From NCBI GenBank assembly GCA_020445165.1, contig JAGRHE010000078.1:1-11989 (forward strand): a DNA stretch of 11,989 nucleotides, given 5' to 3'. The notes under the pieces are model-generated. The model ran no database searches, had not been told where the DNA came from, and worked only from the letters and a program-made list of their open reading frames with translations. Positions 2,162-11,989 of this stretch are shown here, one piece after another. This stretch comes from Gammaproteobacteria bacterium. GTDB taxonomy: Bacteria > Pseudomonadota > Gammaproteobacteria > Chromatiales > Sedimenticolaceae. Position numbers and translations under genes: made by a program. Each line of letters starts with the position of its first letter. Position 1 is the stretch's first letter.

Positions 2162-2848
2162 TCAATCGACGTCACTTGCCGAGGCACAGGTCTCGGCAGC
2201 TTCGTTCAGCGCCTTGCGATCAAGGATCGTCACCCTGCTGCCGGCGATACGGATCAGTCCGTTGTCACCGAGTTGCTTGATGATGCGCGAGAATGTTTCC
2301 GGCTTGACCGACAGACGCGACGCGACCGTCTGCTTGGCCACCGGCAGGTCGTAACTGTCGGCGTCGACCGGTGCATGCTTGACCAGGTAGGCGGCCACAC
2401 GGCAACTGGCACTGTGCAGACTGAGGTCATCGATCTCACGCAGCAAACCGCGCATGCGCTGACTCATCGCCGCCATCATGACAAAGCAGGTATCGATCGA
2501 CTCACGCAGCATGCCAACGAAGTCAGCCGCATCGATACTGATGACACGACAAGCCTGCAACGCGACCGCGCCAACGGGATAGTGTGGTCGGTCGAGAAAC
2601 ATCAGCGCCTCGGCAAAGGTGCCGCCCGGCACGACGATATCGACCACCTTTTCGTTGCCCGCGGGCGACAGGCGGAACAGCTTGATCTGGCCACTGAGCA
2701 ACAGGTAGAAGCGTCTTGCCGGGTCGCCCTGCTCGAACAAGGCCTCACCCTCATCCAGGTGGACGGTTGCGGCATGCCGCGCCACGCGCTGCAGTTGCGA
2801 CTCGGCGAGGTCGCTGAACAGGTAATTCTGCCGCAGGTCGTCGATCAT
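2162..2848 (-). CDS. dnr: Dnr-type CRP/FNR family regulator, probable NO-responsive activator of denitrification
   Basis: This is a cytoplasmic transcription factor of the CRP/FNR superfamily. Residues 10-120 form the cyclic-nucleotide-binding-like sensor barrel (LDEGEALFEQGDPARRFYLL, then FAEALMFLDRPHYP), followed by the dimer helix and a winged helix-turn-helix at about 168-208. The recognition helix KPETFSRII has the E-x-x-S-R set (E184, S187, R188) that reads TTGAT half-sites. There is no N-terminal Cys cluster, so it is not an oxygen-sensing FNR. Overall pattern and length match Pseudomonas Dnr, which needs haem and NO. I used ATG 2848 (228 residues); a TTG at 2911 would add 21 residues without family support. 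No strong ribosome binding site is visible. It is probably last in the hemerythrin-DUF2249-membrane protein operon, so the regulator would be in its own regulon. It converges with moaA. Confidence 0.9.
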   Translation of the reverse strand: MIDDLRQNYLFSDLAESQLQRVARHAATVHLDEGEALFEQGDPARRFYLLLSGQIKLFRLSPAGNEKVVDIVVPGGTFAEALMFLDRPHYPVGAVALQACRVISIDAADFVGMLRESIDTCFVMMAAMSQRMRGLLREIDDLSLHSASCRVAAYLVKHAPVDADSYDLPVAKQTVASRLSVKPETFSRIIKQLGDNGLIRIAGSRVTILDRKALNEAAETCASASDVD

Positions 2849-2931
2849 CTTCGAAAATGCACTCGGTTGGCGTAGTGCGAACAATACCACCTTGGACCAC
2901 AAGCGGACCAAGTCGGCGATGCCGTCATGCG

Positions 2932-4218
2932 TCAGCGCCCGCCATCCTGGCGCAGCTGTTGCAACACCCCCTGACGAATATAAACCGAGCGCGCCAGCGC
3001 AGCCCCGAGCATGAGCGCGAACGCAATGAACAGCACACCACCTGCATGAACCATGGCTGGCAGCAATACGGCGAGCGACAGCGCAAGGAGCGCCACCAGC
3101 AGCATCAATGCGACGGCATTCGCGTACCTGTCAGGCAGCAGCGTATTCAGGCGCGGCAGGCGGATAGCATGATGACGACCTGCGACCAGGCGCTGCTGCA
3201 GATCGAGCCAGCTGAGAAACGGCACGATCTTGAGCAGCGCGCCGACGATGAAGCTGACGGCCGCAGCCAGTAGCAGGATGCCGAGCAGAATCGTTGGACC
3301 GCCACCCAGCCAAACCGCAATAGCAGCCAGCACACCGGCATGACTCGCCTGCCACAACCAGAGGTTGGCGTCGCGCCGCGGCCGCTTGCGCTGTCGCTCG
3401 ATCCATAGCGCTGCAGCCGTGTACACCAGGTAGGTGCCGAACAGCAGGCCGATGACCCAGTGCTGCAACCCGCCTGCCGCAGCGGGCGCGAGTCCCCGCA
3501 GAGGAACAAGTGCCAGCAGACAGAGGATCACCGCGGGAAACGCACCCAGCAACCAGCGCGGAAATCGTGGTGTCACGTAGAACAGCGGTATCAACTGCAT
3601 CGCGATACCGTACAGCAGCAGGCCAACCCAGCCTGCCAGGCCCCAAGCCACATGCGTATCCACCCAGTAGGGATACTGCAACAGCTGAACCCAGCCCAAA
3701 CGCGCGGACGCCAGCGACAGGCCGAGCGCGAGCACACCGGCCAATGCCGCTATCGCCAGGCGTACCGTCCACAAGGTCTCGCGACGTGCGACGGCAGCGC
3801 TTCGCAGAGCGACGAACGAGCTGATAAGAAAGGCTGACAGGCCACTACCGGCCAGGACGCCGCCGGCGAGCAGCAGCGGCGGCAGGTCGAGCAGAAAACC
3901 CGCGCCGACACACAAGCTGCCCAACGCCAGACCCGAGCCGGTCAGGAGCGCGACCAGGCGCACGCGCGGATACGGCGCGCCCAGCAGTACCGGGGCGATC
4001 TGCAGAATCGCGCCACACATGACCGGGGCGAGCGCTCCGAGGAGAATGAAGTGCGTGACTGCCAGCGCCGCCGGCGTCCAGCGTGACGCCAGCACCTGGT
4101 CGCCGTGCACCGCCAGCACCGTCCCGGCCAGGCCGAGAAACACCGGCATCAGGTAGAACAGACCGAAGGGCACCTCCAGCGGTGGGGCATTGTCGGCCGC
4201 GAGGCCGGCGAGGTTCAC
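2932..4218 (-). CDS. 12-TM membrane protein with conserved histidines, NnrS/haem-copper-oxidase-subunit-I-like
   Basis: The 428-residue product has about twelve hydrophobic segments (roughly 17-37, 49-77, 87-110, 112-138, 150-174, 189-214, 222-242, 251-273, 287-304, 308-336, 366-390, 391-414). Histidines sit in or next to them: H56 in THFILLG, H189 in DTHVAWGLAG, and H253, H293 and H391. H-x-x-x-G-type helices and the count of twelve recall NnrS and haem-copper oxidase subunit I, but it lacks the oxidase metal-site motifs I would expect. I do not know an established name. The start is GTG 4218, overlapping the DUF2249 stop as GTGA with GGAAG 6 nt upstream. A longer open frame to 4458 is Arg/Pro-rich shadow of the neighbour. 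It lies between DUF2249 and dnr, so a role in NO response or haem/copper handling is inference. Confidence 0.85.
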   Translation of the reverse strand: MNLAGLAADNAPPLEVPFGLFYLMPVFLGLAGTVLAVHGDQVLASRWTPAALAVTHFILLGALAPVMCGAILQIAPVLLGAPYPRVRLVALLTGSGLALGSLCVGAGFLLDLPPLLLAGGVLAGSGLSAFLISSFVALRSAAVARRETLWTVRLAIAALAGVLALGLSLASARLGWVQLLQYPYWVDTHVAWGLAGWVGLLLYGIAMQLIPLFYVTPRFPRWLLGAFPAVILCLLALVPLRGLAPAAAGGLQHWVIGLLFGTYLVYTAAALWIERQRKRPRRDANLWLWQASHAGVLAAIAVWLGGGPTILLGILLLAAAVSFIVGALLKIVPFLSWLDLQQRLVAGRHHAIRLPRLNTLLPDRYANAVALMLLVALLALSLAVLLPAMVHAGGVLFIAFALMLGAALARSVYIRQGVLQQLRQDGGR

Positions 4219-4478
4219 GCCGAACTTCCGCCCGCCGCGTCGGTCCCGGCCGGCGCCGGCATATCCTGCGGCCAGATCACGATCTCGAAGTGTTCGACCG
4301 CCACCCGGGTCGTCTGCCAGGCGTACCCCATGTCGCGCAACATGCGGTACAGCGGCACCGGATCGCGGCGATGGCGTACCCGCAACCAGTCGCCGGGCGC
4401 GAGGTCGGCCAGCCCGTCGAGGATCCGCTCGAGCGGTTCGGGCGGTTCCAGGCCGCAAACATCGATCTTCTGTTCCAT
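4215..4478 (-). CDS. DUF2249 (TusA-like fold) small protein
   Basis: The 87-residue acidic protein MEQKIDVCGLEPPEPLERILDGLADL... has the DUF2249 hallmark: a short strand ending in D-V-x-G-L-x-P-P-E-P, a helix with LERIL, then GDWLRVRHRRDPVPLY and a helix ending RDMGYAWQ, finishing with HFEIVIW. These proteins have a TusA-like two-layer fold and often sit with hemerythrins and nitric-oxide genes; the biochemical role is not established. The usual TusA Cys-Pro motif is replaced by a Cys at position 8 (DVCGL). Its ATG shares one base with the hemerythrin stop (TGATG) and its stop overlaps the next GTG, so translation is coupled on both sides. The last dozen residues (PAPAGTDAAGGSSA) look disordered. 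Confidence 0.82.
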   Translation of the reverse strand: MEQKIDVCGLEPPEPLERILDGLADLAPGDWLRVRHRRDPVPLYRMLRDMGYAWQTTRVAVEHFEIVIWPQDMPAPAGTDAAGGSSA

Positions 4479-4912
4479 CAGTCTTTCAAAGTTTCACGTT
4501 TCGTCGGCCCCACCAGGCCAGCTGCGAGACATCGGTCGGCGATCGGGTACAGCACATTCTCCTCCTTGGTATTGTGTTGGCGCATCAACAGCGACAGGGT
4601 TTCGATGCAGTCGGACAATGTAGAGATATCAGTCTGCCGGGTTGCCGTGATCAACTCACTGAACAACTCGCGCATTTGCGCATGCTCGAGGCGCATTACG
4701 CTGATCGGATCCGCTGCCGCCGGGCTTGCCGCCGCAAGGGCCGGAAACAGCGTCTGCTCCTCGTAGGCAAGATGGGCCTCGGCCCGTTCGACGAAATGGC
4801 GGGCTGCCGCACTGGCGGTCCGCCAGTCGCGGTCGTGCACGGCCTGCTCGGTCGTGACGATCAATGCATCGCAGTCGCGATGCTGTGACGATAGCGTTTC
4901 CCGGTACCACAT
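4478..4912 (-). CDS. Hemerythrin-like di-iron protein
   Basis: A four-helix-bundle hemerythrin-domain protein of 144 residues, probably cytoplasmic, with no signal peptide. The candidate di-iron ligands are in the expected order: H11 (SSQHRDCD), H47 and E51 (AHLAYEEQTLFP), H77 (LEHAQM), H113 and E117/E118 (RQHNTKEENVLYP). Such proteins bind O2 or NO, or help repair iron centres after nitrosative stress (the RIC/YtfE/ScdA group). This one is the single-domain type without the ScdA N-terminal domain. I started at ATG 4912, with GGGGTG just upstream; longer frames to 4996 begin in the intergenic hairpin. It is first of a coupled set with DUF2249, the 12-TM protein and dnr, and has a possible Dnr box 56 nt upstream. 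Confidence 0.88.
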   Translation of the reverse strand: MWYRETLSSQHRDCDALIVTTEQAVHDRDWRTASAAARHFVERAEAHLAYEEQTLFPALAAASPAAADPISVMRLEHAQMRELFSELITATRQTDISTLSDCIETLSLLMRQHNTKEENVLYPIADRCLAAGLVGPTKRETLKD

Positions 4913-4967
4913 ACGCACCCCGCATGTTCGTGTAACGCGCATCCTGCCGCGCATACCACACGCCGCC

Positions 4968-4981
4968 TTGATATTGGTCAG
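4968..4981. promoter_or_regulatory. Possible Dnr box upstream of the hemerythrin operon
   Basis: The plus strand reads TTGATATTGGTCAG, one mismatch from the Dnr form TTGAT-N4-GTCAA and two from the symmetric FNR site. It is centred 62 nt before the hemerythrin ATG. Class II spacing would put the transcript start near 4933, leaving a leader of about 21 nt. The -10 region is not convincing (AGGATG, or GTTACA a little further). Confidence 0.42.
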
Positions 4982-5008
4982 GTGTCCGCGCTGCATGGCA
5001 GCGCCACC
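4981..5008 (-). terminator. Hairpin after the cytochrome c gene, possible attenuator or Rho-dependent end
   Basis: Immediately after the stop at 5009-5011 lies a 7-bp perfect GC-rich stem, GCGCTGC/GCAGCGC, with a 3-nt loop (4988-5004). It is flanked by a 4-bp GGTG/CACC extension with a GGA bulge. No T-tract follows on the minus strand, so it is not a canonical intrinsic terminator; it may mark a transcript end or processing point. Confidence 0.35.
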
Positions 5009-5440
5009 CTACAACTGCTCCAGGTGCATGATCAGCGCCCGCATCTCGGCAGCATCGAGCTGCCAGCGCGGCATGTAATAACCGAGCATTCTCCCTTCGA
5101 CAGATATTCCTTCTTGGATCGCACGTCTCAGCGCCGTCGCATCATAGCCGCGCGCCACAAGTGCCTGGGCCGTGATCGGCGGAACCCGGCCTGCCACCTT
5201 TCCTGCCTGCACCAGGCGGCCGTTGCCGTCGGCCGCATGACAGCTCGCGCAACCAAAATGTCCGAGCGCAAACCAGCTCGGACCCTGGCTGTAGCCGACG
5301 CGACCCTGCCGCCCCTCTCCACTCAGGTAGATGCGTTCACCGAGGCTTGTTTCCGGGTTACCGCAGGCCCCGATCAGCATGGCCAGGATGACCGTTGTCA
5401 GCATCCGACACAGCAATGCAGGGAAAATGCGTGACTGCAT
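5009..5440 (-). CDS. Lipoprotein monohaem cytochrome c
   Basis: The 143-residue product has a hydrophobic N-terminus ending in a lipobox-like LIGAC (Cys26), so it is probably a membrane-anchored periplasmic lipoprotein. One haem c motif, CASCH, is at 64-68, followed by ADGNGR as in class I cytochromes. The candidate distal ligand is M123 (YYMPRW), with M118 an alternative. A conserved-looking FALGHFGC segment lies just before the haem site. It would carry electrons in the periplasm; the partner is not identifiable, though neighbours suggest nitrite or NO metabolism. It starts 15 nt after the nnrS stop and is probably co-transcribed with it. The ribosome binding site is weak (ACGGG). ATG 5404 (MLTTVILAMLIGAC) is an alternative start that would still give a lipoprotein signal. 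Confidence 0.82.
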   Translation of the reverse strand: MQSRIFPALLCRMLTTVILAMLIGACGNPETSLGERIYLSGEGRQGRVGYSQGPSWFALGHFGCASCHAADGNGRLVQAGKVAGRVPPITAQALVARGYDATALRRAIQEGISVEGRMLGYYMPRWQLDAAEMRALIMHLEQL

Positions 5441-5455: not shown

Positions 5456-6661
5456 TCACCCGGGACGACCATCGATCCGCGGACGCAGCAGAATCGGCAC
5501 GTAATGCCAGGCGAACAGCGCGAAGCAGAGCACCCACAGGCCGGCCGAGAGGTCGATCCACAGGCGGTAACTGTCGCCGGGCCAGGTGCTGCCGAAAACC
5601 CGGATCACTGCCGCAAGGTTCATGATCACGAAAGCGGCCGCGACCGGTCGCGAGACATCGATCGGCCGCCCGCTGTGGCCATGTGCAACCCGCGACATCA
5701 TGCCCAGCGTGAACACGCCGATGGCACCGACGGTCAGCGCGTGCAGCGCTGAGGCCGCGGGGAACACGCCAAACAACGTCAGTGCTGTCAGCAGGGACCC
5801 GAGCACCAGCCACGCGTAGCCGGCATGCAATACCCACAGCACCGGGATGCCCACGACACGCGGACTGAACCAGCCGGCCAGGCGGATCGCCTGCGCACCG
5901 GCGAACACCAGCCAAAACAGGCCCAGCCATACGTCGGGCACCACACCGATCGTCTGCGAAAACACCAGCAGCGCCAGGCTCGCGACGGTTATTCGCTCGA
6001 CCCACGGCCGCTGCGTGGCCGTGAAACCGGGCAGCACGTTCTGGGTGAAGAAGGGCATCACCCGTCCGCCGACCAGCATGATGGTCGCGAGTATCAGTTG
6101 CAGCATGACGCGGCGCATGTCGCCCAACCCCTCGACGACACCGAGCATCTGTAATTGCGACAACAGGCCGGCCAGACCCATCAACAGCAGCAGTGGCACG
6201 AACACCCGGTTGCTGCGGTTCTGGCCGCGCCACAGCGGTCGCACCAGGCTCACAGCCAACAGCGGCAGGAACGCGGCGTCGACGGTGATCAACAGCCACA
6301 GCGGGATCCCGGGAAACCACGGCATTATCCGCCCGAGCAGCCAGACCGCCGCCAGCAAGGCCAGCCGCTGACCGGTCCAGGTCGCCTCGCCGGTCCAGTT
6401 GCGCACCGCGGTGAGCAGGAACCCGGCGATCACGGCGACGCTGTAACCGAACAGCATCTCGTGCGCGTGCCAGTTGATCGGATCATAGTGTGCAGGCAGT
6501 GTCAGCACGCCCTGCCAGACGAACGGCCATAGCGCGATCAATAGCAGCGCGCTGAGCGCGGCAAGCAGGAAAAACGGCCGGAAGCCGAGCGCGAACGGTA
6601 CCCAACGCGGCGGCGCCGGCCCGGTCGCAGGTTTTGGTGCAGACGGTTTTAATATGTCCAT
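5456..6661 (-). CDS. nnrS: NnrS family membrane protein
   Basis: NnrS proteins are 12-TM haem- and copper-containing membrane proteins that protect cells from NO and iron-dinitrosyl damage during denitrification. The 401-residue product has the family marks: PFALGFRPFFLLAAL at 22-36, the signature WHAHEMLFGYS at 64-74 followed by AGFLLTAVRNWTG, GGRVMPFFTQNVLPG at about 198-212, HALTVGAIGVFTLGMMSRVAHGHSGRP at 307-333, and a final helix with WHYVP at 385-389. Length matches the family. The gene starts at ATG 6661, 65 nt after norD. A good Dnr box at 6698-6711 lies only 36 nt before the ATG, which would give a nearly leaderless message under class II spacing. The downstream lipoprotein cytochrome c is probably in the same transcript. 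Confidence 0.95.
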   Translation of the reverse strand: MDILKPSAPKPATGPAPPRWVPFALGFRPFFLLAALSALLLIALWPFVWQGVLTLPAHYDPINWHAHEMLFGYSVAVIAGFLLTAVRNWTGEATWTGQRLALLAAVWLLGRIMPWFPGIPLWLLITVDAAFLPLLAVSLVRPLWRGQNRSNRVFVPLLLLMGLAGLLSQLQMLGVVEGLGDMRRVMLQLILATIMLVGGRVMPFFTQNVLPGFTATQRPWVERITVASLALLVFSQTIGVVPDVWLGLFWLVFAGAQAIRLAGWFSPRVVGIPVLWVLHAGYAWLVLGSLLTALTLFGVFPAASALHALTVGAIGVFTLGMMSRVAHGHSGRPIDVSRPVAAAFVIMNLAAVIRVFGSTWPGDSYRLWIDLSAGLWVLCFALFAWHYVPILLRPRIDGRPG

Positions 6662-6697: not shown

Positions 6698-6711
6698 TTG
6701 ACTGCGATCAA
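6698..6711. promoter_or_regulatory. Dnr/FNR box upstream of nnrS
   Basis: On the minus strand this reads TTGATCGCAGTCAA, an exact TTGAT-N4-GTCAA Dnr-type site extended to CTTGAT...GTCAAG. It sits in the 65-nt gap between norD and nnrS, centred 43 nt before the nnrS ATG. A weak -10 (CATCCT, 6669-6674) fits class II spacing. Confidence 0.72.

Positions 6712-11811: not shown

Positions 11812-11989
<178 letters not shown>

Follow-up and report, generated by a model that had tools for sequence, protein, structure and literature searches.

A conserved operon of hemerythrin, DUF2249, and a predicted oxidase-fold membrane protein with a candidate displaced heme site in a denitrification region

The window analyzed here is an 11,989-nucleotide stretch of a gammaproteobacterium of the Sedimenticolaceae (contig JAGRHE010000078.1), and our subject is a cassette of three genes on its minus strand. 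These encode a hemerythrin, a DUF2249 protein, and a protein with twelve transmembrane helices (12-TM protein; single helices are called TM1 to TM12); the coordinates of all features are given in Table 1. A sequence-only reading of this DNA had described three genes overlapping end to start and followed by a Dnr-type gene on the same strand, and this was confirmed: the hemerythrin and DUF2249 genes have one base in common (TGATG), the GTG start of the 12-TM gene overlaps the DUF2249 stop (GTGA), and the gene of a DNR-like regulator follows on the same strand after approximately 80 base pairs (bp). The GTG start is supported by close homologues, which start at the same residue. On the minus strand, the order from 5′ to 3′ is the end of norB, further genes up to that of a VWA protein, nnrS, a cytochrome c gene, the cassette, and the DNR-like gene. 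The window is a denitrification region, where the cassette sits between nor and nap genes.

To analyze the conservation of this arrangement, the 12-TM gene was used to retrieve 80 genome loci, the top scorers among at least 504 relatives, with some near-duplicates (e.g., L002/L003, L009/L011, and L014/L019). Loci were counted by six-frame profile searches in place of position-based counts, which had given 69/79 for hemerythrin and 48/79 for DUF2249, window included. On the strand of the 12-TM gene, 78/80 loci had hemerythrin no more than 1 kb upstream, 67/80 had DUF2249 no more than 700 bp upstream, and 67/80 had the two together. Since the 12-TM gene had been used to choose these loci, which also supplied the profiles, the test was repeated with profiles from Pfam in 274 whole genomes that belong to the class of Thiocystis minor (presumably Gammaproteobacteria); these were not picked by neighborhood, and at most the best 5–20 candidates per genome were scored. 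The 12-TM protein was carried by 29/274 genomes. DUF2249 was found in 45/274, including all 29 carriers, each of which (29/29) has it directly 5′ of a 12-TM match; counted from the other side, 30 of the 61 DUF2249 matches occupy this place. Hemerythrin was just upstream of the 12-TM gene in 28/29 carriers, with G032 as the exception. The cassette arrangement is far beyond chance, and the co-occurrence for which the sequence-only reading had proposed a neighborhood survey was borne out for the three cassette genes. We did not find the operon or a TM2/TM6 heme site described in the open-licence literature; absence from print is not claimed.

Some loci showed other arrangements. In L057 and L065 (Alcaligenaceae, Allopusillimonas records), the 12-TM gene had no detectable hemerythrin or DUF2249 upstream, and a convergent CRP/FNR-type gene adjoins it. 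Among the 274 genomes, three 12-TM places had no upstream DUF2249, namely two contig pieces (G087:C142 and G107:C218) and a second copy (G122:C33:12057-13286), the latter closely preceded by a cd1-type match in the same orientation. A hemerythrin–DUF2249 pair was also observed at G252:C240:17406-18076, in a genome that gave no 12-TM match with an E-value of 1e-10 or lower; the pair may, therefore, exist alone.

Next, the fold of the 12-TM protein was analyzed. The predicted model consists of 12 long helices in the heme-copper oxidase fold, as does the model of NnrS. Foldseek gave eight matches at E up to 0.001, all heme-copper oxidases, and below approximately rank 24 the list contained unrelated folds of low probability. 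The 50 chains listed by VIA-align were heme-copper oxidases and nitric oxide (NO) reductases. The threefold 12-TM fold of the oxidase catalytic subunit was thus predicted, and loops rich in positive charge fit an N-in/C-in topology by the positive-inside rule. A Pfam search with the protein returned no family at E up to 10, PF00115 included, and the NnrS profile PF05940 (cut-off 28 bits) did not match it. The sequence-only reading had asked for a comparison with heme-copper oxidase subunit I and NnrS, and a shared fold is what the models predict. Judged from the model, the 12-TM protein is probably a degenerate member of the heme-copper oxidase superfamily that kept the threefold barrel of subunit I. 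One relative, P0053 (579 amino acids, Thiohalocapsa marina), carries after its 12-TM part a C-terminal extension, as seen by eye, with a precomputed PF11756 domain; its record name is nitrous oxide-stimulated promoter family protein, after this domain.

Conserved residues were analyzed in alignments from two protein searches, each with approximately 8000 scored candidates, from which the best 120 of 286 and the best 120 of 1038 matches were obtained. Alignment A1 (n = 48) contained the window protein and 47 sequences chosen from the first search, and a 253-row alignment contained 175 search matches (the window protein among them, once) and 78 locus proteins, with redundancy kept. The loci L004 and L017 are included in the 80-locus counts but not in the 78 locus proteins, as the gene caller picked the opposite-strand frame there. 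H56 was present in 253/253 and H189 in 252/253 aligned sequences, including that of the window; P0048 alone had Arg instead of H189. The spacing from H56 to P76 was constant in 253/253 and that from H189 to P211 in 252/253. Polar residues were also kept: Q73 in 253/253, K330 in 251/253, R46 in 251/253, and Q208 in 181/253 with Glu at that position in 51. Other His columns belonged to part of the family only (A1: position 339 in 33/48, 373 in 27/48, and 94 in 26/48), and none is His in the window protein, where position 339, at the inner end of TM10, is Asp. The sequence-only reading had noted histidines in several helices, which is true of the window sequence, although conservation across the whole family is limited to H56 and H189.

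No conserved His was found in TM7 or at TM10 indices 0–2 (register defined below) in the 12-TM alignments, indicating that the high-spin heme ligand has been lost together with the metal site of the oxidases. Compared with the six-histidine ligand set of the oxidases (low-spin heme, high-spin heme, and CuB/FeB), the family has only two His that are conserved in all parts of it, at other register positions, and none of the catalytic His positions of CcoN and NorB (PF00115) in TM2, TM6, TM7, and TM10 is kept. An invariant Gly of TM10 (G313) was considered as the exact replacement of an oxidase ligand and was dropped, since the length of TM10 varies (22 residues in 206 rows and 21 in 47).

The two His were then placed in the helix register. 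After the ligand position, helix two of every four-helix unit in these proteins usually shows Gly at index 15 and often Pro at index 22, and the CcoN helices mostly show aromatic residues at indices 18–19. CcoN has His at TM2 index 0, TM6 index 2, and TM10 indices 0 and 2 (10/10 each), and NnrS at TM2 index 0 and TM10 index 2 (9/9 aligned). We take TM2 index 0 plus TM10 index 2 to be the low-spin heme site on this CcoN scale and TM10 index 0 plus TM6 index 2 to be the high-spin heme and metal site; the NnrS pair, which keeps the former two positions, would therefore be the low-spin site. In the 12-TM family, the Gly and Pro marks put H56 at TM2 index 2 and H189 at TM6 index 0. By threefold pseudo-symmetry, these two would be the remaining pair, located where units one and two meet, and this third slot is most likely empty in oxidases, NO reductases, and NnrS. 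A profile alignment of unit one with NnrS unit one (E 0.0012) placed H56 onto H67 rather than onto the invariant H65, and G69 onto G80, while the whole-profile alignment with CcoN placed H189 on H342, index 0 (E 0.0019, probability 14%). The most likely role of H56 and H189, located at the outer helix ends of TM2 and TM6, is to ligate a single b-type heme.

A further oxidase-like family of approximately 380 amino acids, A5, was observed near the cassette in six loci. Its alignment comprised four of the six members (one short and one near-identical sequence were left out) and showed His at TM2 index 2 and TM6 index 0 (4/4), plus TM6 index 2; a Pfam search with one member gave no match above the cut-off. 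Kinship of the 12-TM family to CcoN, NorB, NnrS, and A5 by sequence alone was not taken as proven, as the scores were weak.

Regarding the partners, H11, H47, E51, H77, H113, and E117 of the hemerythrin were each found in 69/69 cluster members, window included, and we take these four His and two Glu to be equivalent to the YtfE di-iron ligands. The protein resembles RIC/YtfE/DnrN in its HHE domain with the complete ligand set and in a weak match to YtfE structures (E 3.9e-4). It differs from them in its length of 144 amino acids, in scores far below the curated NCBIfam cut-offs (YtfE 41.6 of 254, RIC 36.2 of 204.7, and DnrN 18.9 of 300 bits), and in showing no second domain by Pfam. Cys14, three residues past the first iron ligand, was present in 68/69 hemerythrins, and the next residue, D15, in 69/69 (window positions 4868-4873).

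The DUF2249 protein passes the PF10006 cut-off (58.1 versus 29.5 bits) and gave a weaker TusA match, under the cut-off of that family; the Cys of the TusA motif is missing. We take COG4309 to be the same family as DUF2249. Sections of PMC1274295 report COG4309 as co-transcribed with nor genes and linked to norB. Likewise, for Thermus and Haloferax, parts of PMC6282519 and PMC11218638 associate DUF2249 with the respiration of nitrate and NO. DrpA of Thermus and the haloarchaeal proteins resemble the cassette in having DUF2249 in nitrate-respiration clusters; in contrast, no 12-TM partner of such a kind is mentioned in those parts. In a portion of PMC11218638, Pei et al. 2014 (doi 10.1002/pro.2503) is cited as tying DUF2249 to the heme-copper oxidase superfamily.

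Binding boxes for FNR/DNR-type regulators were then counted upstream of hemerythrin in 79 regions (78 loci and the window) and at 624 control gene starts, which include genes inside operons and thereby inflate the contrast. The box TTGATNNNNATCAA was found without mismatch in 19/79 regions versus 11/624 controls, with at most one mismatch in 36/79 versus 35/624, and with at most two in 51/79 versus 103/624. Among these 51 boxes, 35 start 61–89 bp ahead of the called hemerythrin start. The window contained 11 matches with at most two mismatches versus 1.66 expected, approximately 6.6 times more, and 0/200 shuffles reached 11. The three-gene operon is probably induced anaerobically. FNR and DNR sites are indistinguishable by the pattern used.

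The window regulator contains the domains of CRP/FNR proteins and closely resembles a DNR of solved structure, its best PDB match being 3dkw (E 1.3e-46), which we take to be DNR of Pseudomonas aeruginosa. A DNR-like (CRP/FNR) gene was located within 600 bp of the 12-TM 3′ end in 22/80 loci, on the same strand in 11 and convergent in 11. The sequence-only reading had counted dnr as a fourth cassette member; it is present in the window and in these loci, but it is not fixed, and half of the time it is convergent. A feedback loop with an NO regulator is, therefore, possible in the window and is not a fixed feature.

The carriers were also compared with the 245 non-carriers among the 274 genomes for genes of nitrogen-oxide metabolism. 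NnrS was present in 28/29 carriers versus 105/245 non-carriers, norB in 19/29 versus 47/245, cd1 in 17/29 versus 36/245, and either a norB-profile or a cd1 match in 23/29 versus 60/245; the p-values of these co-occurrences ignore kinship. A norB match means profile A3 at E up to 1e-30, which takes in long frames of approximately 750–815 amino acids resembling quinol-type NO reductases. A cd1-type gene cluster was found in 14/79 loci. These results support the nitrate- and NO-respiration setting suggested from the window, with a conserved cassette under FNR/DNR-type boxes.

We propose an explanation whose chances we judge to be about even: the three genes form a conserved operon in which an oxidase-barrel protein, stripped of its catalytic site and carrying one displaced b-type heme, serves hemerythrin and DUF2249 in coping with NO. 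We infer heme binding, heme position, the protein partnership, and the NO function from what was computed, i.e., gene order and its conservation, predicted fold, conservation and register of the His, and box enrichment. FNR or DNR would switch the cassette on. The 12-TM membrane cytochrome would then work with the RIC-like di-iron hemerythrin, which we take as cytosolic because no signal peptide was seen by eye, with DUF2249 as a possible adaptor. The set may trap or reduce NO, or keep iron centers reduced, during nitrite and NO respiration, the 12-TM protein being a putative single-heme membrane accessory to the cytosolic di-iron pair. Its heme would sit nearer the periplasm, the compartment in which periplasmic nitrite reductases produce NO. 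Any direction assigned to the transfer of electrons or NO would be a guess. A bolder form, which we hold as tentative and somewhat unlikely, is that the heme occupies the third slot (TM6 index 0 plus TM2 index 2) and that the 12-TM protein, with its dedicated di-iron hemerythrin and DUF2249, forms an NO-handling system apart from NO reductase and NnrS, wide among anaerobically living proteobacteria.

Several points weigh against the proposed explanation. DUF2249 was undetectable in 13/80 loci and hemerythrin in 2/80 (L057 and L065). The profile-profile scores of the 12-TM family against CcoN, NorB, and NnrS were weak (probability 14% or less); that of NnrS against CcoN was weak too, and the alignments compared were small (9 NnrS, 10 CcoN, 3 NorB, and 4 A5 sequences). 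Both alignments of 12-TM units one and two opened a gap, bringing H56 onto H189, and many unit-to-unit comparisons left the two positions unaligned; against the gapped alignments stands the spacing of H56 and H189 to the Gly and Pro marks, which is direct and nearly exceptionless. The third-slot placement would follow from register and oxidase structure. In an oxidase-like topology, the His would be near the periplasmic side, and inspection by eye gives no hint that hemerythrin or DUF2249 is exported; it is thus not obvious that electrons pass directly between them. Furthermore, a norB match and a cd1 match were both missing from 6/29 carriers (no search was made for NirK or further NO reductases), and NrdD, HemN, and U32 neighbors point to general anaerobic control.

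The sequence-only reading suggested a second NnrS-like heme/copper protein. A divergent NnrS, with the same heme site (TM2 and TM10 His) and the same NO-protective job, appears improbable to us. The two families share the predicted fold, an NO-linked gene context with co-occurrence in the same genomes, and two conserved ligand-type His; however, PF05940 does not match, the TM10 ligand positions have no conserved His, the TM2 His is two residues off that of NnrS by the Gly mark, and the pair is TM2 index 2 plus TM6 index 0 rather than the TM2 index 0 plus TM10 index 2 of NnrS. Moreover, carriers keep a separate NnrS, indicating that the 12-TM protein does not replace it. Nothing was seen in favor of the copper role, as the metal-ligand His of the oxidases are all lost. 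Oxidase-homology (HCOH) proteins with three four-helix units and two His were reportedly described by Pei et al. in 2014, with NnrS among them. With these proteins the 12-TM protein shares 12 TM, three units, a predicted oxidase fold, and two conserved His, as well as a presumed single heme and the denitrification context; the 12-TM family or its His placement may already be among those families. Thus, the general kind is already known, and we rate the 12-TM family as a variant apart because its His pair, as aligned, differs from both oxidases and NnrS.

Alternatively, the cofactors may be lost altogether, leaving a permease or scaffold in which an ion, a metal, or a small nitrogen compound would pass along a route lined by the conserved His, by R46, and by the Gln/Gln(Glu)/Lys set found towards the inner helix ends (TM2, TM6, and TM10). 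The strongly kept Q73, K330, R46, and Q208 (or Glu) and the missing metal-site ligands would suit such a protein, which we nevertheless consider unlikely: the kept His stand where the oxidase fold presents heme ligands, and the VIA-align chains are oxidases and NO reductases, both being compatible with transport nonetheless. A module of general FNR-driven anaerobic metabolism, supplying heme, quinone, or iron under anoxia with no special NO link, would agree with the neighbor clusters (HemN-like in 13/79 loci, NrdD in 10, SCP2 in 10, and U32 in 9), with FNR and DNR boxes looking alike, and with the six carriers mentioned above. We give it a low probability, in view of the strong co-occurrence with nnrS, norB, and cd1 (which kinship may inflate), the cd1-type cluster near the cassette, the one fusion to a PF11756 domain, the RIC-like di-iron ligands, and COG4309 co-transcription with nor genes in the sections cited above.

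If the proposed explanation with a displaced heme is true, the oxidase barrel would be re-usable with its heme shifted by one symmetry step, which bears on the origin of the superfamily from repeated four-helix units. In addition, DUF2249, a domain repeatedly tied to denitrification with no known job, would gain a function that can be tested, and a component would be added to the survival of denitrifiers in their own NO.

Table 1. Features of the window, and members of the A5 family in other loci
Feature	Position	Strand	Remarks
Hemerythrin (HHE) gene	4478..4912	-	144 amino acids; first gene of the operon; PF01814 E 3.6e-22
DUF2249 gene	4215..4478	-	87 amino acids; PF10006 E 7.8e-16
12-TM protein gene	2932..4218	-	428 amino acids; GTG start; predicted heme-copper oxidase subunit I fold
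H56 codon	4051..4053	-	near TM2 start; proposed heme ligand
H189 codon	3652..3654	-	near TM6 start; proposed heme ligand
DNR-like CRP/FNR regulator gene	2162..2848	-	3′ of 12-TM gene; PF00027 and PF13545; ATG ~2848, stop 2162
FNR/DNR-type palindrome TTGATATTGGTCAG	4968..4981		~55-70 bp 5′ of hemerythrin gene; 2 mismatches to TTGATNNNNATCAA
FNR/DNR-type palindrome	6698..6711		5′ of nnrS; 1 mismatch to TTGATNNNNATCAA
Cytochrome c gene	5009..5440	-	between nnrS and cassette; PF00034 E 3.6e-05
nnrS	5456..6661	-	membrane protein; same predicted fold as 12-TM protein
VWA protein gene		-	NorD by context; precedes nnrS
Iron-sulfur membrane protein gene		-	related to NapH and CcoG, under the cut-offs of both families
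Small membrane protein gene		-	after AAA gene
AAA protein gene		-	CbbQ/NirQ/NorQ type; after COX4_pro gene
COX4_pro protein gene		-	between oxidase-III-like and AAA genes
Cytochrome-oxidase-III-like gene	11048 onward	-	assigned by eye
norB, last codons	~11812-11988	-	window edge; 29/46 residues identical to a NorB
moaA		+	by eye; after DNR-like gene
napF, napD, napA start		-	all by eye; nap-type genes beyond moaA
A5 members	L010:9231-10373, L033:3456-4601, L035:11521-12615, L042:13576-14703		also in L013 and L024

Further scans were conducted on the window. PADLOC gave no match for any of the three cassette proteins, and an anti-phage reading was set aside. RNA and tRNA scans of the window found none, and a promoter scan of 2800-5100 showed no promoter-like site. 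Between the 12-TM gene and dnr, a weak terminator-like site was observed at 2887-2906 on the minus strand, one being found versus 1.5 expected in shuffles.
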